In this document: piece by piece, positions 4,219-13,594 of the stretch
How positions within the stretch are numbered: the first letter of the stretch is position 1
How the letters are laid out: each line of letters opens with the position of its first letter
DNA from: Halorussus ruber
GTDB taxonomy: Archaea; Halobacteriota; Halobacteria; Halobacteriales; Haladaptataceae
Direction of reading: 5' to 3'
DNA length: 64,000 nt
NCBI RefSeq assembly: GCF_004765785.1
Contig: NZ_SBIT01000006.1
Span: 186,001 to 250,000, forward strand
Made by a program: the position numbers and the translations under genes
Notes under the pieces: generated by a model
Seen by the model: only the letters and a program-made list of their open reading frames with translations
Databases searched by the model: none
Told to the model about the DNA's origin: nothing

Positions 4219-7200
4219 CTACCGCCGTCGTCGCATCACCAGCATCCCCGCGGCCGCCAGCCCCACTGTCGCGGTCGCGGCCTCGCCAGCGAGGAGGCCC
4301 GAGAGGTCCGAGAGACCGGAGAAGCCTGCACGGTCGCTAATCCCGCCGGAGGAGTTCTCCTCGCGGTTGGGCGTCTCCGGGTCGTAGCAGAACGCGAGTT
4401 CCTCGATGGGGAAGGGGTTGCCGCCGGGGTTGTCCGGCGCGCGGAGTTCGGCGCGCTCGGTGACGCCCTCGGGGAAGGCGTAGACGTTCGCGCCCGGCCC
4501 GCCGTAGACGATGACCGCGTCCACGCGGAGCGTCGAGTCGAAGGTCACCGCGACGGGTTCGCCGTCGTCGTCGCGCTCGACTTCGACCAACTCTAGCTCG
4601 AACGTCTCGCCCTCGACCGTGAACTCGTAGGTGTCCGGCCCGACTCGGGTGGCGTTCTCGCTGGTGAACTCGCCGTCCTCGTCGGTCAGGCTCACCGCCC
4701 GCTGGAGGCCGAGGTCCTCGCCGCACTGCGGGAACCCGGCGACCGGCCGCGGCGTGACCTCGGGTTCCGGAATCGTCGTCGTGGTGGTGGTAGTGGTCGG
4801 TTCTTCGGTGGTCGTCGTGGTCGGCTCCTCGGTCGTGGTAGTCGTCGGCTCTTCAGTCGTGGTGGTCGTCGGCTCCTCAGTAGTTGTCGTGGTCGTCGTA
4901 GTCGGTTCCTCAGTCGTGGTGGTCGTCGTAGTCGGTTCCTCAGTCGTGGTGGTCGTCGTAGTCGGTTCCTCCGTTGTGGTAGTCGTCGTGGTTGGCTCTT
5001 CCGTCGTGGTGGTCGTGGTAGTGGTCGGTTCTTCCGTCGTGGTAGTCGTCGTAGGCTCTTCTGTGGTGGTTGTCGTCGTGGTCGGCTCCTCAGTCGTGGT
5101 GGTCGTGGTCGTAGTCGGTTCCTCGGTGGTGGTTGTGGTAGTCGGCTCTTCCGTCGTCGTGGTCGTTTCCTCGGTCGTAGTCGTCGTAGTCGGCTCTTCT
5201 GTCGTCGTGGTCGTTTCCTCGGTCGTAGTCGTCGTAGTCGGCTCCTCGGTCGTGGTAGTCGTAGTGGTCGGCTCCTCGGTCGTGGTAGTCGTAGTGGTCG
5301 GCTCCTCGGTCGTGGTAGTCGTAGTGGTCGGCTCCTCGGTCGTCGTCGGTGTCTCGGTCGTCGTGGTCGGCGGCGGGCCGGGTTCTTCCGTGGTCGTGGT
5401 GGTCTCGGTGGTCGTCGTCTCAGTCGGCGTCGGTGCCGCCGCCACGCGCACCGTCACGTTCGGCCGGTCGTTGACGGTCGCCTTGCCCGGCTCCTCGCCG
5501 ACGAACCCGGTCCGCGCCTCGACCGAGTAGTTCCCCGGTGCCAACTCGTCGAGCGTGGTCTCGTTGTCGGGGGCCAACTCCAGCGTCCGGTCGAAGTCGT
5601 CCGGCCCGGTCACGTTGACCGTCATATTCAGGTCGGTCGGGTTCTCGACGCTCAGCGACTCCGGGGCCTCCGAGGAGACCCTGACGTTCGGACAGTCGGC
5701 CACGCGCAGGATGTCGATCTCGTTGCCGTTGACGGTCGCGTTCCGGCGCTGGTCGAGTTCCTCGCCCGCCAGCTTCTCGCCGCCGGGCACCCACGCCCGG
5801 ACCGAGTAATCGCCGGGCGTCAGGTTCGAGAGCGTCCGGTCCTCGCCCGGTTGGACTTCGAACTCCCGCGCGAAGTCGTCCGACCCGGTGACTTCGAACG
5901 TGACGTTCGCGTCGGTCGGATTCTCGACCGTCACCTCCTCGCAGACGTTCGACCGCGCCTCGACGTTCGGGGGTTCGGGCTCCTCGGCCGTGGTGGTCGT
6001 GAGAGTAGTTGTCGGCGTCGGAGTTTCCGTGGTCGTGAGGGTAGTGGCGGTCGTGGGAGTCGGCGTTTCGGTTGTCGTGATAGTCGTCGTGAGCGTCGTG
6101 GTTTCTATCGTCGTGGTCGCTGTCGGGGTGGTCGTCTCGGTCGTTGTTAGCGTCTCGGTCGTGGTCGGAGTGAGCGTTTCAGTCGTGGTCGTTGTCGTAG
6201 TCGTCGTCTCGGTTGTCGTCGGTTCTTCCGTGGTGGTCGTCGTCTCGGTCGGTGTCGTCGTAGTCGGCGTCGGACACGCCCCAATCGTGACGCTGGCTAT
6301 CTGGTCGCCGTTGACCGTCGCAGGCCGGGTCGGTTCGACGAGACCGCCAGCCTTCGCCTGCACCCGGTAGGTGCCGGGCGAAATCCCGAACGTCTCGCTC
6401 TCGCCCGGATTCAGGATGACGACTTCGGTCAGTCCCGACTCGGCGGTCACCGAGAACGTGATGCGCTCGGTGCTCGGGTTGGTGAGTCGCAGTCGCTCGC
6501 AGTCGGGACTCACCGCTCTGGCGTTCGGCGGCGGTCCGGGCTCCTCGGTCGTGGTGGTCGTGGTCGGCGTCTCGGTGGTGGTCGTGGTCGGGAGCGGGAG
6601 CGTCGTGGTCGTCGTGGTCGTCGTCGTGTCGCGCTCGACGCACTCCTCGAAGTCGGGGTTGCGCTGGCGGTCGGACTGGTCGCCGCGCTTGACGACGACG
6701 CGCTCGATAACTTCCCCGCGGTTGTCCCCGGTCCCGAAGAAGACGTTCCGGCCCCGGAAGTGCCCGCGGAAGGTCTGACTGTCGCCGTCCTCGAACACCA
6801 GTCGCACCGAGTCGTAACGGTGGGCGTCCACCGCGACCTTCTTGCAGGCGAAGTCGTATCTGGGGTCGAGCGGTCTCGGGGTCTCTGTCGTGGTGGTCGT
6901 CGTTTCGGTTGTAGTGGTCGTCTCCGGCTCTGCGCAGGCCTCGAAGTTCGGGTTCCTGCGCGTCACCGACTCGCCGTCGGGGCCGCTGACCGTGACGGAT
7001 TTCACGACTTTGCCCTGATTATCGCCGGTGCCGACGAACTGCCCGCGGTCCTCGAAGTCGCCGCGGAACACCTGCGTCTCGCCGTCGGCGAAGGTCAGCC
7101 TGACCGACCGGAACTGGTCGGCCTGCACGACCGCCTTCTCGCAACTCACGAAGAATATTCGCGGCAAGAACTGCTCTTCGTCGGGTTCCGGCGTCGCGGG

Positions 7201-9903
7201 TTCACAGCCGCTCACGTCGTTGCGCCGGACCTCGAAGGTGTCCGGCCCGTTGAACACCTTGACCTGCGTGACGACCTCGCCCTCGTTCTTGCCGGTGCCC
7301 GCGAAGGTGTTCGTCCCGCTGTAGATGCTCCGGAAGGTCTGGGTGTCGCCGTCCTCGAAGGTCAGGACGACGCGGGTGTACTGCTCGGCCGCGACCGTGA
7401 CCTTCCGGCAGTCGAACGCCACCCGGATGCGGAGGGGTTCCGGCGTCGGGGTCTCGGTCGTGGTGGTGGTCGTCGTCGTGGTCGTCTCGGTGTCCGGCGT
7501 CTTCGGTTCCGGACTCTCACAGATTTCCTGCGTGATGGAGTCGTAGATGCCGACGAGGTCGCCCGGCGACGGCGCGTCGTAGAAGTCCTCGCGCGAGGAG
7601 GCGACCGACCGAAGCAGGTCCTTGTTGGCCTCGTCGCCGAGCGCGATGGTGATGACGCGAGTGCCGTCCCGCTTGATTCGCCGCGCGACCGCTCTGGGGT
7701 CGCCCTCCTGGTTGTGGTCCCCGTCGGACAGCAGGACGATGACTGGCTGGGCGTTCTGGCGCTGTCTCGACTGGAGCGCGTCGTCCGCCGTGCTGAGCGC
7801 CTCGGCGATGTTCGTCTTACCGTCGGCGCTGAGCCGGTCTATCGCCCGAATCACTCGCTCGCGGTTACCTGTCAGTCGCTGGTCTACCCGGGCCGATTCG
7901 GAGAACGACACGAGTCCGAGTCGGTCGTCGGGTCGGTCCACGGCGCTCACCAGCCGACTCCCCGCTCGCTTGGCCGCCGTCAGCGGTTCGCCGTTCATCG
8001 ACCACGAGCGGTCCGTGACCAGCATCACGTCCACCGGCTTGCCCGGTTTGCATTCGGGGGTCGGCGGCACGGTGGTCGTCGTCTCTTTCTTCGCCGGTTC
8101 CTCCGGACAGCTACCCTTCACGACGTAGGCCGCGCCGGTGTTCTCGTTCTCGGGGGTCTCCTCGCCCAGCGCGGCGAACGGCGCGCCGACCAGCAGGTCA
8201 GCGGCGGAATCGTCGTCCACGTCGCCGCCCGAGAGCGCGTACCCCGCCAAATCGCCCTCGGACTTCCCGCTGAACTTGGCGTGCGCCCCGGAAAGGGAGT
8301 GTTGCTCGGCGATTTGCGAGCCGTAGAGCAGGTAGGCCGCGCCAGCGTTCGACGCGGTGCTGTTGTTGAAGGGCGCGCCAACCAGCAGGTCGGCGTGGTC
8401 GTCGCCGTTCACGTCGCCAGCGCCCGCCAGCGACCACCCGGCGAGGTCACCGCCCTCCTCGCCGGGGAGCGCGGCGTCGGCCTCGGTCGAGAGGTTGACC
8501 TCGCGCGAGAGGTCGCCGCCGTAGGCCACGTAGGCCGCCCCGGCGTCCTCGGCCTCCTCGGCGGGCACGTCGTGGAAGGGCGCGCCGATAGCCACGTCGT
8601 CTCTGCCGTCGTCGTTCAGGTCGCCAGCATTGGCGACTGCGAACCCGGCTTGGTCGCCCTCGCCAGCGCCGCGGAAGGTGACCGGCGAGTTCACCAGCAG
8701 GGAGGTTCCCGAGAGCTGAGGTCCGTACTGGAGGTAGGCCGCCCCGGCGTCCTCGCCGACCGAGTCGTTGCCCCGAGCGCCGATTAGCACGTCGCTCACG
8801 CTGTCGTTGTCGGCGTCGAGCGCCGCGACCGACGACCCGGCGTAGTCACGCCGGGCCGCGCCGAGGTAGGTCACGTTGGCGTTTCCGAGGTCGAAGGTCC
8901 CCACCCGGGGCATGTACGTCAGGTAGGCCGCGCCGGAGTCGGGGGCCACGCCGTCGTGCTGCGGCGCGCCGACGAGGAGGCCCGCGGTCCCGTTGCTCGC
9001 GTTCGCCATCGTCGCCAGCGACCACCCGGCGCGGTCGCCCGCCTCGGCCCCGCGGAAGGTCGCGGTGGCGAACTTCAGTCCCACCGTCTCGGGCAAGTCG
9101 TCGCTGCCGTAGACGACGTAGGCCGCGCCCGAGTCCCGGCCGTTGGCGTCAGCGAGGGGTGCGCCGACCACGATGTCGGCGTAGCCGTCGTCGTTCAGGT
9201 CGCCCAACTCGACGGCGAACCCGGCGCGCTCGCCGGACGAGCGCCCCCGGAAGGTGACGTCGGCCTCCGAAAGCTCGATTTCGCTCCGGTTGACCGGGCC
9301 GTAGAAGAGGTAGGCCGCCCCGGAGTCCTCGCCCGCCGAGTCGTTGGACGGCGCGCCAACCAGCAGGTCGGCCTCCCCGTCGCCGTTCACGTCGCCGACG
9401 TCGGTCGACCACCCGGCGCGGTCGTTGCTCGCCGCGCCCGAGAGTTTGGCGTCGGCGTCCGAGAGGTTCGCGGACCCGGCCGGTCCGCGCGGAATCGCGC
9501 TCTGACTGCATCTGGTCGCCTGACTCGCTTCGGCTTGGTTATTCTGATTCGATCTGACTCGGTTATTATTGCTTTTAGCCTCGCTATTATTTCCTTCCCT
9601 ATCTCCTCTATCGCTCTGGGACTGTGCCGCGTTTCCGTCGCTACCGCCGAGTTCGCCGACGGACGGCACCGCCGTTATCGGGGACGAGGAGGGAGCGGAC
9701 GAGAAGGAAGAATCCGCTGAGGGCGCGCCGGACGCGCTCGACGGGGGTGGTGCGCCGTCCGCGCCAGACCCCTGTATCTGAGAAGTACCCGCGGCCGCGA
9801 AAGGCATCCCGGCCGCGCCGACGATGCTACTGGCGACGAGGAGCCACGCGAAAACGAGTGCGCCTCTCCGGCGTTTCGAACCGCCACCCTCCCCGGATGT
9901 CAT
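4219..9903 (-). CDS. giant surface protein: FG-GAP propeller, VWA domain and Thr-rich stalks
   Basis: 1894 residues. The N-terminus has KRRR and a hydrophobic signal segment (residues 14-38). Residues about 140-600 hold seven FG-GAP units with Ca-binding loops such as DVNGDGEADLLVGAP, as in an integrin-type seven-bladed propeller; the third blade is degenerate. A von Willebrand A domain follows (about 617-795) with a MIDAS of DRSWS and LLSDGD. Then come three repeats of about 85 residues with paired Cys (about 820-1090), PEGA-like beta units (about 1125-1490), a (T)nEEP stalk (about 1490-1713), a last beta domain with two Cys, and a membrane anchor ending RRRR. It is probably an O-glycosylated adhesin or receptor stalk. 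No PGF-CTERM tail is present. Confidence 0.85.
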   Translation of the reverse strand: MTSGEGGGSKRRRGALVFAWLLVASSIVGAAGMPFAAAGTSQIQGSGADGAPPPSSASGAPSADSSFSSAPSSSPITAVPSVGELGGSDGNAAQSQSDRGDREGNNSEAKSNNNRVRSNQNNQAEASQATRCSQSAIPRGPAGSANLSDADAKLSGAASNDRAGWSTDVGDVNGDGEADLLVGAPSNDSAGEDSGAAYLFYGPVNRSEIELSEADVTFRGRSSGERAGFAVELGDLNDDGYADIVVGAPLADANGRDSGAAYVVYGSDDLPETVGLKFATATFRGAEAGDRAGWSLATMANASNGTAGLLVGAPQHDGVAPDSGAAYLTYMPRVGTFDLGNANVTYLGAARRDYAGSSVAALDADNDSVSDVLIGARGNDSVGEDAGAAYLQYGPQLSGTSLLVNSPVTFRGAGEGDQAGFAVANAGDLNDDGRDDVAIGAPFHDVPAEEAEDAGAAYVAYGGDLSREVNLSTEADAALPGEEGGDLAGWSLAGAGDVNGDDHADLLVGAPFNNSTASNAGAAYLLYGSQIAEQHSLSGAHAKFSGKSEGDLAGYALSGGDVDDDSAADLLVGAPFAALGEETPENENTGAAYVVKGSCPEEPAKKETTTTVPPTPECKPGKPVDVMLVTDRSWSMNGEPLTAAKRAGSRLVSAVDRPDDRLGLVSFSESARVDQRLTGNRERVIRAIDRLSADGKTNIAEALSTADDALQSRQRQNAQPVIVLLSDGDHNQEGDPRAVARRIKRDGTRVITIALGDEANKDLLRSVASSREDFYDAPSPGDLVGIYDSITQEICESPEPKTPDTETTTTTTTTTTETPTPEPLRIRVAFDCRKVTVAAEQYTRVVLTFEDGDTQTFRSIYSGTNTFAGTGKNEGEVVTQVKVFNGPDTFEVRRNDVSGCEPATPEPDEEQFLPRIFFVSCEKAVVQADQFRSVRLTFADGETQVFRGDFEDRGQFVGTGDNQGKVVKSVTVSGPDGESVTRRNPNFEACAEPETTTTTETTTTTTETPRPLDPRYDFACKKVAVDAHRYDSVRLVFEDGDSQTFRGHFRGRNVFFGTGDNRGEVIERVVVKRGDQSDRQRNPDFEECVERDTTTTTTTTTLPLPTTTTTETPTTTTTTEEPGPPPNARAVSPDCERLRLTNPSTERITFSVTAESGLTEVVILNPGESETFGISPGTYRVQAKAGGLVEPTRPATVNGDQIASVTIGACPTPTTTTPTETTTTTEEPTTTETTTTTTTTTETLTPTTTETLTTTETTTPTATTTIETTTLTTTITTTETPTPTTATTLTTTETPTPTTTLTTTTAEEPEPPNVEARSNVCEEVTVENPTDANVTFEVTGSDDFAREFEVQPGEDRTLSNLTPGDYSVRAWVPGGEKLAGEELDQRRNATVNGNEIDILRVADCPNVRVSSEAPESLSVENPTDLNMTVNVTGPDDFDRTLELAPDNETTLDELAPGNYSVEARTGFVGEEPGKATVNDRPNVTVRVAAAPTPTETTTTETTTTTEEPGPPPTTTTETPTTTEEPTTTTTTTEEPTTTTTTTEEPTTTTTTTEEPTTTTTTEETTTTTEEPTTTTTTEETTTTTEEPTTTTTTEEPTTTTTTTTEEPTTTTTTTEEPTTTTTTEEPTTTTTTTTEEPTTTTTTTEEPTTTTTTTEEPTTTTTTTEEPTTTTTTTTEEPTTTTTEEPTTTTTEEPTTTTTEEPTTTTTTTTIPEPEVTPRPVAGFPQCGEDLGLQRAVSLTDEDGEFTSENATRVGPDTYEFTVEGETFELELVEVERDDDGEPVAVTFDSTLRVDAVIVYGGPGANVYAFPEGVTERAELRAPDNPGGNPFPIEELAFCYDPETPNREENSSGGISDRAGFSGLSDLSGLLAGEAATATVGLAAAGMLVMRRRR
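4766..5440 (-). repeat. coding tandem array for the Thr-Glu-Pro stalk
   Basis: This DNA encodes about 30 units of (T)4-8-EEP or TTEE. Parts are perfectly repeated: a 30-bp unit occurs three times without change at 5251-5280, 5281-5310 and 5311-5340, a similar 30-bp unit is doubled near 4890-4960, and a longer block of about 48 bp is doubled near 5150-5245. Elsewhere the Thr codons vary (ACC, ACG, ACT, ACA), so old and recent expansion are both visible. The frame is kept throughout. Confidence 0.85.
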
Positions 9904-10056: not shown

Positions 10057-11550
10057 CTACCGTCGAAGCGCGAGGAGGGCCGCCGCGAGTGCGAGCAGGG
10101 CCGCGCCGACGCCGAACCCGGGGACCCCGCCGTCCGCCCCGGCGGTGCCCGTGGCGGTGTCACCCTCGATGGCTTCGTCGCCGGTCTCCTCGCTGTCGTT
10201 CGCCGATTCCCCTCCGGTTCCGCCTTCGTCGGGAGTTGTGGTACCCGGGCCGTCAGCGCGCTCGCCGATGCTGACCAGCCAACCGTCTTTGCCCTGCGCG
10301 CCGTCGCCGGAGGTCTGACCCGCGAGGACGTAGCCTCCTCGGTCGCGGATGGCGGGCCACGGCTTGTCCCAGCCGTCGGTGCCGTAGTACTTCGACCACT
10401 TCGTCCGGCCTTTCTCGTCGGTCTGCACGACGTAGCCGTCCACGCTCCCCTTCGGCCCGGCGTCGGACCCGCCCGTGACGAAGTAGCCCTGTTCGGTCCG
10501 CATCGCCGAGTCGAGCCACTGAGTGCCCTCGCCGCCGGGTCGGCGCTCCCACTCGACGCTTCCCTCCGGGCCGAACTTGACCAGCCAGCCGTCTCGCGGG
10601 CCGGTGCTGTCGCTCTCGGTCTCTCCGGCGAGGAGGAAGCCCGCGCTGGCGTCGCCGTCGGTCGAACCCGGCGCGGCCGCCCACACGTCGTCTCGGGCCG
10701 GGCCGCCCGCGGTGGTCTGCCACCGGAGGGTGCCGTCGTCGGCGACTCTGAGCGCCCACCCGTCGTCGCTGTCGCCCGCAATTTTCCCGGCGAGGTAGTA
10801 GCCCGAGTCGGTCGGCACGACCGCCCGGAGGTAGCCGTCGTCGTACTCCTCGGGGGTCTGGTAGCTCTTTTCCCACACCGTCGAGAGGTTGGCGGAGTCG
10901 GTAGAGTCGCCCGAGTCGGAGGAGTCGCCCGCGGAGCCGCCAGCGAGCTTGGCGGTCCAGCCAGCTTTTCCGTCCTCGCCGTGAGTCCACCCCGCGAGGA
11001 GGTACTCGGTTCCGGCGTCGGCATCGCGGCGCTCGACCGCGTAGAAGGCTCCCGACCCGAGGGTGCGCTGGTCGCGGACCTCGCCCGCGGCGTCGAGTTC
11101 GACGACCCACCCCTTCGCGCCGCCGTCGTCGGTCCGACCCGCGAGGAGGTAGCCCTGTTCGGTCCGGGCGAGGCCCCAGAACCGGTCGGTGCCCGGTCCG
11201 CCGAGGGTCTTGGACCACTGCTTCTGGCCCTTCGAGTCGGTCTTGAGAACCCACCCGTCGCGCTCCTCGTCCGTCTCGGTCCACCCGACGAGGAGGTAGC
11301 CCCCGTCGTCGGTCGCCACGAGGTCCGAAATCATGTCGTCGCCGCTCCCGCCGTAGGTCTGTCGCCACTGCTCGGGGAGGTCCGGGGGTGTGCGAGCGTC
11401 GATTTCTGCTTCGCTCGCGCTCTGCTCCTCCGAGGACTCGACCGCCGGTCCGCCGGTCGCCGCCGCGGGGACGACCCCCGCGAGGCCAGCGCCGACGACC
11501 AGCGCCGCCAGCGCGACCGCCCGCAGTCCGACTGCGCGTGCCGTTTCCAT
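10057..11550 (-). CDS. secreted beta-propeller protein with PGF-CTERM anchor
   Basis: The chosen ATG at 11550 gives 497 residues starting with a signal peptide (METARAVGLRAVALAALVV up to AAATGG); longer frames upstream lack sense, and a TATA-like attataac lies about 30 bases before this ATG. The body (about residues 60-430) has roughly seven repeats of about 50 residues with the pattern GGxGxD..A..A..DGGYLLVGxT...DGWVLKxDxxG, a blade type of secreted propellers. A Gly/Glu/Thr linker leads to PGFGVGAALLALAAALLAL-RR, the PGF-CTERM tail processed by archaeosortase A. The protein should end up lipid-linked on the cell surface. The divergent neighbour is the AT-rich island. Confidence 0.85.
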   Translation of the reverse strand: METARAVGLRAVALAALVVGAGLAGVVPAAATGGPAVESSEEQSASEAEIDARTPPDLPEQWRQTYGGSGDDMISDLVATDDGGYLLVGWTETDEERDGWVLKTDSKGQKQWSKTLGGPGTDRFWGLARTEQGYLLAGRTDDGGAKGWVVELDAAGEVRDQRTLGSGAFYAVERRDADAGTEYLLAGWTHGEDGKAGWTAKLAGGSAGDSSDSGDSTDSANLSTVWEKSYQTPEEYDDGYLRAVVPTDSGYYLAGKIAGDSDDGWALRVADDGTLRWQTTAGGPARDDVWAAAPGSTDGDASAGFLLAGETESDSTGPRDGWLVKFGPEGSVEWERRPGGEGTQWLDSAMRTEQGYFVTGGSDAGPKGSVDGYVVQTDEKGRTKWSKYYGTDGWDKPWPAIRDRGGYVLAGQTSGDGAQGKDGWLVSIGERADGPGTTTPDEGGTGGESANDSEETGDEAIEGDTATGTAGADGGVPGFGVGAALLALAAALLALRR

Positions 11551-11719
11551 GCGCGCTTGTCGGGGTCCGACGCGTTTTGTTATAATCCGTCTGTAATTCT
11601 TTACAGGGGGTCTGTCCGCCGGTAGGACGGGCATATTAAGCAATACCGGCAGATTCAGAAGAGGTTCAACAGTGCGCTGGTTAAGAAGTAATAAGAAGGG
11701 TGAATTCGGAACTATAGAA

Positions 11720-12361
11720 CTAAATATCTAATATTTCTTCTTCATGTTCGTCAATCCAGTTATAGCATTGAGATGAAACTGCTTGGTGCATAGCTCCAAT
11801 AGTTTGTTCGTCGTATTCAAGATGCTCCTTTCCATGGTCGCTTGCCCACCTTTCTGGATAAATATCTCTAGAATTAAAGTTTTCTGTATCTGCTTGTCCT
11901 TGAACAAGACCGCTTACTTTCTTCCGCCGATTGTTCTCATACAGTATTACGCCTTTCTCCCCTCTAGTATCTAGATTGCTTATCCAGTATGTAAATTCCG
12001 CCGTCACAGATGAGTTTTGCTCATAAGATGGATCAAATTTACCATCCTCAAATCTGTTCTCTAGTGGTTCCAACAAAATAAAGACTGCTCGGTCTGCTTC
12101 TTCTAGACATTGTCTGCTAGTTTTCCAAATAAATTCATCTTCTGAGTCTGAATTCTTCTTTATTATCTCTTTTTCATTCCGTTCTGAGCAGAGCCACGCT
12201 CTATAGCCATCTTCGCGGAGTTTTTCTGCGATTTCTTCTAAAATATATTCACAGCTCCCGCCATAGGGACCAAATATACCTATTGAAAGGCGTTTCTTGG
12301 CTCTCTCCAATCTTTGATTAACTGCCCCGTACTTTTCCTCAAAGCGGTCCCTGTTGCTCAT
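11720..12361 (-). CDS. nucleoside-deoxyribosyltransferase/TIR-like protein of an AT-rich island
   Basis: A 213-residue protein. After a helical start, residues 25-60 read RLSIGIFGPYGGS, then a helix (YILEEIAEKLREDGY) and a strand (RAWLCS). Residues 85-105 give a second unit, SRQCLEEADRAVFILLEP, and SSVTAEFTYWI follows near 120-130. This order (Rossmann-like strand with a G-rich loop, S..L..AD..V..L, then S-x-x-x-E) is what nucleoside 2-deoxyribosyltransferases and TIR-like NAD-cleaving domains show; the family assignment is my inference. The codons are AT-rich, unlike the flanking genes. It is transcribed away from the regulator at 12436 from a shared TATA element. Confidence 0.55.
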   Translation of the reverse strand: MSNRDRFEEKYGAVNQRLERAKKRLSIGIFGPYGGSCEYILEEIAEKLREDGYRAWLCSERNEKEIIKKNSDSEDEFIWKTSRQCLEEADRAVFILLEPLENRFEDGKFDPSYEQNSSVTAEFTYWISNLDTRGEKGVILYENNRRKKVSGLVQGQADTENFNSRDIYPERWASDHGKEHLEYDEQTIGAMHQAVSSQCYNWIDEHEEEILDI

Positions 12362-12392
12362 TATAGGGTACTTGCGAAATTATGCGGACAGA

Positions 12393-12402
12393 AGATTTAA
12401 AT
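12393..12402. promoter_or_regulatory. palindromic TATA box shared by divergent genes
   Basis: The ten bases gatttaaatc are a perfect palindrome. On the minus strand they lie 32 bases before the ATG at 12361, and on the plus strand 34 bases before the ATG at 12436. Both distances fit a haloarchaeal TATA box about 25 bases before a transcript start close to the start codon. A TFB/TBP complex could therefore load in either direction. Confidence 0.6.
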
Positions 12403-12435
12403 CCTCGGGGTCACAACATCTTGACCAACGAAACA

Positions 12436-12903
12436 ATGCCCCCTCAGTCGAGCCCCCCTGTTGAAAAGTACTCGGGAAGAATACCAGATGAGATTAAGAG
12501 AGCTATTGATGCAATAAATGGGGATGTTCAATATGCAATTGTTGTACTCTTAATCAAAGAGGAAGGTCTTGCATTCACTCAATTACAAGAGGAACTAGAT
12601 GTCCACCAGAATACTCTTTCAAGAAACTTAGACCGGCTTATGGATGGTGGTCTCTTAGACCGTGAAGAGTTTGGGGAGCACAGCGAGAAATACAAAGCGA
12701 AGTATACCATCACTTCGTTCGGCAAGCGATTCATTGACCATCTATTCGAAAGCATTGATCCCACTTGGCAAAGACAATCAGTCTATTCAAATCGAAATAT
12801 GGGTCGAACAAATGAAAGGTTTCAACAAGAACCAACTGATCGAAATCCTTCAATAGGGGATAATTCAGAAACTACTAAAAGCAAAATCAAGGTGAACTCT
12901 TAA
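12436..12903 (+). CDS. winged-helix regulator of the AT-rich island
   Basis: With the ATG at 12436 the protein has 155 residues. An upstream in-frame ATG at 12382 is rejected because the TATA element lies inside that extension. Residues about 15-95 form a winged HTH: DEIKRAIDAI, VQYAIVVLLIKEEG, LAFTQLQEELDVHQNTLSRNL (recognition helix), then the wing and YTITSFGKRFIDHLF. The C-terminal 55 residues are polar and low in complexity. Codons are AT-rich. It sits 3 bases before the next gene and probably controls the divergent NDT/TIR-like gene, with which it shares a promoter. Confidence 0.65.
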   Translation: MPPQSSPPVEKYSGRIPDEIKRAIDAINGDVQYAIVVLLIKEEGLAFTQLQEELDVHQNTLSRNLDRLMDGGLLDREEFGEHSEKYKAKYTITSFGKRFIDHLFESIDPTWQRQSVYSNRNMGRTNERFQQEPTDRNPSIGDNSETTKSKIKVNS

Positions 12904-12906
12904 CTA

Positions 12907-13497
12907 ATGCCCTCTGATCAAGAACTTTCCTTAGCAAAAGACACACTCTTAGATTACAGCCAGAAGCTAGGGGATGAAATCATTGAAAGGGAGGTCTTTG
13001 AACAGGATAGTAATGTTATAGGATTTACAGCGCTTGATGAGACATATTCTGCGTACTACAATGTTTACGGAACTCCTCAGTTCGAATTTTTCCAAGTGAT
13101 GTTTAGATTTTCCTTGTCTAGAACAATAGCAAATCGATTAGGTGAGGAAACAGTTACGGAATTGGTAGATAAAGAGGAGAATCCTCGTGATGTCGGAAAC
13201 GAAATAATAAATAAGCATGATGAAACTGAACTAGAATGGTTAGAATATCAGCTCAAACAGCGAGTCTTAAATTCTGATACCTTTTGCGAGATCGATACAA
13301 CCGAGAAGGGGAAAATGAATGGGTTTTCTGTGTTCAGTCTAGTCTTCCCATATGAGGACAACTTTTCTCTGTCTGACTACTATAGTAGTACAGAAGCAGT
13401 ATTAAATACTGGGGAGAAAGGTAGTGACTACCTTCATCACTCTGTCCAAGTTTCCGAAACAGACGATGAGGACATAGAATTAAATATCCGGATATAG
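12907..13497 (+). CDS. unknown protein of the AT-rich island
   Basis: A 196-residue acidic protein of no family I recognise. Visible traits are a helical N-terminus, an aromatic core GFTALDETYSAYYNVYGTPQFEFFQVMFRFSLS (read across residues 39-71), a charged middle with many Glu and Lys, and a beta-rich C-terminus (FSVFSLVFPYED, HHSVQVSE). It has no signal peptide and no transmembrane segment. The ATG follows the regulator's stop by 3 bases, so the two are cotranscribed. Base composition marks it as part of the same acquired unit. Confidence 0.6.
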   Translation: MPSDQELSLAKDTLLDYSQKLGDEIIEREVFEQDSNVIGFTALDETYSAYYNVYGTPQFEFFQVMFRFSLSRTIANRLGEETVTELVDKEENPRDVGNEIINKHDETELEWLEYQLKQRVLNSDTFCEIDTTEKGKMNGFSVFSLVFPYEDNFSLSDYYSSTEAVLNTGEKGSDYLHHSVQVSETDDEDIELNIRI

Positions 13498-13594
13498 ATT
13501 TAAACTCTGGCGTAAAAATCTCACTCTCCTTTCCGATTCCCAAACTATAGTTACGACCCGGCGATTTAACCGCCTCCCGCCCGACGACTCCCGC

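Follow-up and report, generated by a model that had tools for sequence, protein, structure and literature searches.

What kind of genetic unit is formed by three AT-rich genes that lie together among GC-rich neighbors in Halorussus ruber, and what might their products do? The genes are found in a 64,000-nucleotide stretch of DNA (the window) and encode the proteins P1, P2 and P3 (Table 1). An earlier note on the same sequence had suggested a small defence or toxin module, in which a nucleoside-deoxyribosyltransferase (NDT)-like or TIR-like enzyme is encoded divergently from a winged-helix (wHTH) regulator and accompanied by a third protein. We asked how this suggestion fares when the composition of the locus, its relatives in other genomes, its intergenic region and the families of its products are examined.

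Table 1 Features of the three-gene locus (positions in the window)
Feature	Position	Strand	Remarks
AT-rich acquired island	11590..13547	.	Approximate edges; GC profile and comparison with congeners
P1, 213 aa, putative protein of the NDT/ADP-ribosyl-cyclase superfamily (DrHyd-like)	12361-11720	-	Weak profile matches
Candidate shared TATA element, palindrome GATTTAAATC	12394..12403	.	Between the two divergent promoters, ~33 bp from each of the two start codons; putative promoter role
Predicted operator GGTCACAACATCTTGACC, one mismatch to GGTCAA-N6-TTGACC	12409..12426	.	9 bp ahead of the P2 start and 47 bp ahead of that of P1
P2, wHTH regulator of 155 aa, cognate partner of P1	12436-12903	+	Domain match; wHTH tree
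P3, 196 aa, family without known fold	12907-13497	+	3 bp after P2, same operon

The three genes form a recently acquired island

The GC profile drops to 0.37–0.46 over positions 11500–13500, compared to 0.69–0.73 in the flanking genes, which bears out the sharp fall that had been described for this locus. On the left, the fall begins at around position 11590, and this edge is set by composition alone. The right edge, at around 13547, is the point where likeness to the alcohol dehydrogenase (ADH) promoter of congeners (GACCCR-CGATTTAA) restarts. The neighbors of the island are a gene for a 528-aa secreted-type protein on one side and the ADH gene on the other. The three open reading frames in 11720–13497 are AT-rich (37–45% GC), intact, open and non-overlapping.

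The AT-rich insert is absent upstream of the orthologous ADH gene in 17 congeners. The gene at this position is not constant among the congeners inspected, and the insertion place looks variable among them. Neither convincing terminal repeats nor a convincing target-site duplication was found at the two ends of the island, and a search for tRNA genes within the 64-kb window returned none. The three-gene cassette is recently acquired and moves horizontally. Defence islands had been named as a context to look for; the window locus lies outside any such island.

Elsewhere in the window, positions 4219–9903 (minus strand) encode a 1,894-aa surface protein. By eye, it has repeats of the FG-GAP/integrin-alpha type, a region similar to von Willebrand A, long repeats rich in Thr/Glu-Pro and a hydrophobic anchor at the C terminus.

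P1 shows a faint resemblance to nucleoside deoxyribosyltransferases

P1 has no credible family match in Pfam, NCBIfam, PHROGs or PADLOC. Its close relatives conserve the residues G31-P32, D90 and N116-x-S118-x3-E122-x3-W126, and the last of these motifs is a candidate active-site segment. The S118-x3-E122 element is kept in five of the six aligned members, the glutamate being out of register in the protein from genome G239, and its spacing is unlike that of the catalytic glutamate motif of NDTs.

For comparison, an NDT profile was built from archaeal PF05014 proteins, and 150 column-shuffled profiles served as decoys. Aligning the P1 and NDT profiles with hhalign gave a score of 21.5 over 83 columns (E = 0.014) at a probability of only 3%. 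None of the 150 decoys reached this score, which lies below Pfam thresholds. It is the only long co-linear profile match of P1, and the only one above decoys. In the alignment, the IFGPY segment of P1 is placed over the YLAGPL loop of the NDTs, and LEEADRAVFILLE over IDRADLIIAILDG. The two families thereby share a co-linear β1-GP loop and an ...AD-x-AVF strand. In contrast, the SGTAxE motif of NDTs is replaced by N-x-S-x3-E-x3-W in P1, which in addition contains long inserts. The evidence for the NDT-like layout proposed earlier is suggestive only.

The second fold proposed earlier, that of the TIR NADase effectors of Thoeris and TIR-pAgo systems, was rejected, because the signal of P1 was no better than that of decoys: only 14 columns aligned to the TIR_2 profile, and 9 of the 150 decoys scored as high. 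The positive control, NDT versus TIR, scored 49. PADLOC detected none of the partner genes of these TIR defence systems at the trio. A set of haloarchaeal TIR proteins (L115–L122 and L124) was also set aside as possible relatives of P1 because of its different conserved context. These proteins are about 201–228 aa long, have a Cys-rich C-terminal part and are found in conserved chromosomal surroundings in several genera of haloarchaea.

The sole PDB family matched by the P1 profile was CD38, at a non-significant E of 0.62–0.74. An FWxxxSxxFxExA region aligns between the two, but HMMER leaves the catalytic glutamate unaligned, and the ADP-ribosyl cyclase Pfam family does not match P1. The resemblance is striking by eye, yet at E ~0.6 and with the glutamate unaligned we rejected it as homology and retained it as a lead only. 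NDTs belong to the DrHyd superfamily. The ADP-ribosyl cyclase (ARC) clade, which contains CD38, has been assigned to the same superfamily (PMC9503650), and the weak NDT and CD38 signals are therefore mutually consistent, neither of them being proof.

Structure models were computed for two P1 sequences (from the window and from locus L070) and for one P3 sequence. For P1, the model was of low quality (pLDDT 53, pTM 0.57). Searching with it, Foldseek returned no match at E ≤ 0.001; TIR and DNPH1 proteins turned up only at E ~0.6–1.1. The P3 model, with a pLDDT of 40, was too poor for a fold search.

The trio recurs in distant haloarchaeal relatives

P1 is known at seven loci. Profile searches found it in 5 of 394 Halobacteriales genomes, namely that of the window, G002, G012, G207 and G119. 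A sixth copy, in G239, was recognized beside a P3 relative, in part from this location; at 22–23% identity, it is the most weakly supported family member. The seventh is located on plasmid unnamed3 of Halomarina sp. BND7 (NKI68_RS22305-22315), where it adjoins PIN/AbrB toxin–antitoxin-type genes. Six of the seven loci have P1 and a wHTH gene in divergent orientation, with the third gene directly after the wHTH gene. The exception is G002, which has no wHTH gene; there, 55 bp separate P1 from the divergent third gene, and P2 may thus be dispensable. The recurrence of the trio in other haloarchaeal genomes, on which the earlier suggestion depended, is thus observed: every P1 homolog found has a divergent companion, which differs from the picture of homologs that always occur separately in GC-rich core surroundings.

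G207 and BND7 form the closest pair of loci (70–76% identity), and their dN/dS ratios are 0.087–0.091 for all three genes, all of which are under purifying selection. Because the layout recurs in other genera and this pair has a dN/dS of ~0.09, the association of the three genes goes beyond chance; they are inherited together. Relatives of P1 and P3 were also searched for in viral contigs, where none was found. At the G239 locus (L030, 6646–7203), the P1-like gene is overlapped at its end by a co-directional gene whose 185-aa product has a single TM segment and is a possible membrane effector.

The third gene is exchangeable

Like P1, P3 lacks a credible match in Pfam, NCBIfam, PHROGs and PADLOC. 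The third gene is of P3 type at two of the P1 loci (the window and G239) and belongs to an unrelated family, SB, at the other five (G002, G012, G207, G119 and BND7). The third gene of the P1 cassette is therefore exchangeable. P3-type genes are present in 31 of the 394 Halobacteriales genomes and SB-type genes in seven. Each of 13 P3 genes examined is directly preceded by a wHTH gene. The divergent gene at these loci mostly encodes a protein of ~100 aa rather than P1; seven such proteins fall into one linked group (S1) and two into another (S2). The partners of P3-type genes thus extend to further wHTH clades and further divergent genes.

Members of both third-gene families were also seen in other surroundings. 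Four congeneric genomes (L066, L067, L068 and L069) have a lone gene for an SB relative of ~158 aa next to a dapA-like gene, so the SB family also exists in a resident form outside the cassette. Lone P3 relatives in another haloarchaeal family (L012, L015 and L017) are located by acyl-CoA dehydrogenase-like and/or biotin carboxylase-like genes and possibly represent a resident form of P3. At L074 (7437–8355 and 9166–10527), a P3/wHTH/S1 cassette is found ~0.8 kb from a terminase-like gene and may sit in a provirus.

A cognate regulator and a conserved operator

P2 is a wHTH protein of the MarR/HTH_20 type (HTH_20, E = 1.7e-7; MarR_2, 3.4e-6), and these matches, together with its placement in a cognate clade, support the regulator that had been proposed to diverge from the 213-aa gene. 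It shares the wHTH domain with MarR/HTH_20-type haloarchaeal repressors and with Csa3. In contrast to Csa3/MarR-type proteins, a CARF or other ligand domain was not found in P2, and the cassette has a specific predicted operator. An upstream ATG at 12382 would extend P2; the start at 12436 is preferred because starting at 12382 would put the operator inside the gene.

To relate the regulators to their gene partners, we compared 17 wHTH proteins in a tree: six paired with P1, seven with S1 and four others. The P1-paired proteins form one clade (100/100), although two of them precede P3 and four precede SB. The S1-paired proteins likewise form one clade (99/100), and the remaining four group less certainly. 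The wHTH type tracks the divergent gene and not the third gene.

Each of the seven P1 loci has the inverted repeat GGTCAA-N6-TTGACC, with zero to two mismatches, in its divergent region. The mismatches sum to 7, whereas 3,000 simulations averaged 34.7 and never gave fewer than 26. An unbiased scan for 5+5 inverted repeats with spacers of 0–10 found GTCAA-N6-TTGAC as an exact match at five of the seven loci, and no rival repeat at more than two. At all six loci with a wHTH gene, an operator copy (≤3 mismatches) either overlaps the first wHTH codons or stops no more than 10 bp short of them; G012, G207 and BND7 contain extra copies closer to P1. A genome-wide regulon was considered and rejected, since site counts across related genomes are near those of a reversed-pattern control. 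This suggests that control by the operator is local.

Haloarchaeal mRNAs are often leaderless. On such a transcript, a repressor bound at the operator would cover the start site, which would make P2 a likely autorepressor that, through the predicted binding, also controls P1. At a locus of the S1 class (L006, 846–930), the region that separates S1 from its wHTH gene contains a perfect palindrome of 20 bp, GTGCCAATCTAGATTGGCAC, and partly similar GTGCCAA repeats are present at L078 and L079. These sequences suggest that the S1 class uses an operator different from that of the P1 class.

A possible mechanism and its alternatives

PADLOC matched wHTH domains at the trio but none of its system models, and keyword searches of open-access literature found no description of it. 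Together with the library searches above, this supports the earlier view that no described system combines these three parts.

Our preferred reading, which we put forward tentatively and consider possible rather than probable, is that the trio is a mobile effector–repressor–partner module with a defence or toxin–antitoxin-like function. P2 would bind GGTCAA-N6-TTGACC overlapping its own start site, and by occupying this one site it would both repress the P2-P3 operon and control the divergent P1. The effector would be P1, which most likely belongs to the NDT/ADP-ribosyl-cyclase (DrHyd) superfamily of enzymes and has a nucleotide or NAD+ as its substrate. P3, or its unrelated substitute at other loci, would restrain P1 or couple it to a trigger, for example a virus or plasmid. 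Loss of control by P2 and P3 would free P1 and halt growth or infection. Mobility, the toxin–antitoxin genes beside the plasmid copy and the divergent effector–repressor layout make a defence or toxin role plausible.

The trio could instead be an ordinary acquired metabolic or stress operon, with P1 as a nucleoside-salvage or housekeeping glycosidase that is under its own repressor and confers a conditional benefit. NDT family members are metabolic enzymes, divergent repressor–enzyme pairs are common in metabolism, and both the low dN/dS and the position outside a defence island would fit. We nevertheless regard this as somewhat unlikely: the spread is sporadic (5 of 394 genomes), the composition AT-rich and the context one of plasmids and mobile elements, and exchange of the third gene, with alternative divergent genes on the P3 chassis, is unlike salvage operons. 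Mobility, the plasmid copy by PIN/AbrB genes and the swapping of parts lead us to favor defence or toxin–antitoxin function over metabolism.

A signalling role is unlikely, if not implausible. In such a scheme, P1 would make or bind a signal derived from NAD or a nucleotide, and the effector would be another protein, such as the single-TM protein of G239 or the membrane proteins encoded next to P3 at other loci. DrHyd, TIR and ARC enzymes often produce signals (PMC9503650), genes for predicted membrane proteins are neighbors of the module in G239, G092, G244, G252 and G356, and the P1 of G239 looks catalytically degenerate. However, the island in the window encodes no membrane protein, and neither do most P1 loci.

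That the genes are the leftover of an integrated virus or plasmid and have no joint function is improbable: P3-related loci are indeed found near integrases, ParA or a terminase-like gene, but the trio layout, the operator and the cognate wHTH clade are retained in different genera, and the genes are under purifying selection.

The nearest three-part analog in make-up is CmdTAC, which consists of an NAD-using toxin, an antitoxin and a SecB-like chaperone (PMC11618068), and a small NAD-using toxin is plausible here, too. CmdTAC and other TAC systems are encoded in one operon, in contrast to the divergent cassette, and have an Xre- or CmdA-type antitoxin instead of a wHTH protein. It is highly improbable that the third protein is a SecB-like or YbjN/T3SC-like chaperone stabilizing a wHTH antitoxin, despite the three-part make-up and the long, poorly conserved C-terminal tails of the cassette wHTH proteins, given that profile comparisons of SB with SecB (a likeness guessed by eye from the C-terminus) and of P3 with YbjN/type-III chaperones gave no signal above decoys and that PF02556 had no match in 148 genomes of the phylum.

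Implications

Haloarchaeal antiviral and toxin–antitoxin modules are poorly catalogued. The P1 and P3 families have no profile in any library searched, and the operator and the cognate wHTH clade can be used to find more cassettes. An unlikely but broader possibility is that the trio exemplifies a chassis for modular immunity in archaea. A cognate wHTH protein and an exchangeable third subunit (P3 or SB) would then control swappable divergent effectors, either P1 as a DrHyd/ARC-class NAD or nucleotide enzyme or the ~100-aa families, each wHTH clade having its own effector type. If P1 is indeed an NAD or nucleotide hydrolase or cyclase, the TIR/DrHyd/ARC effector class would extend to a minimal archaeal version of three genes, whose partners can be exchanged.
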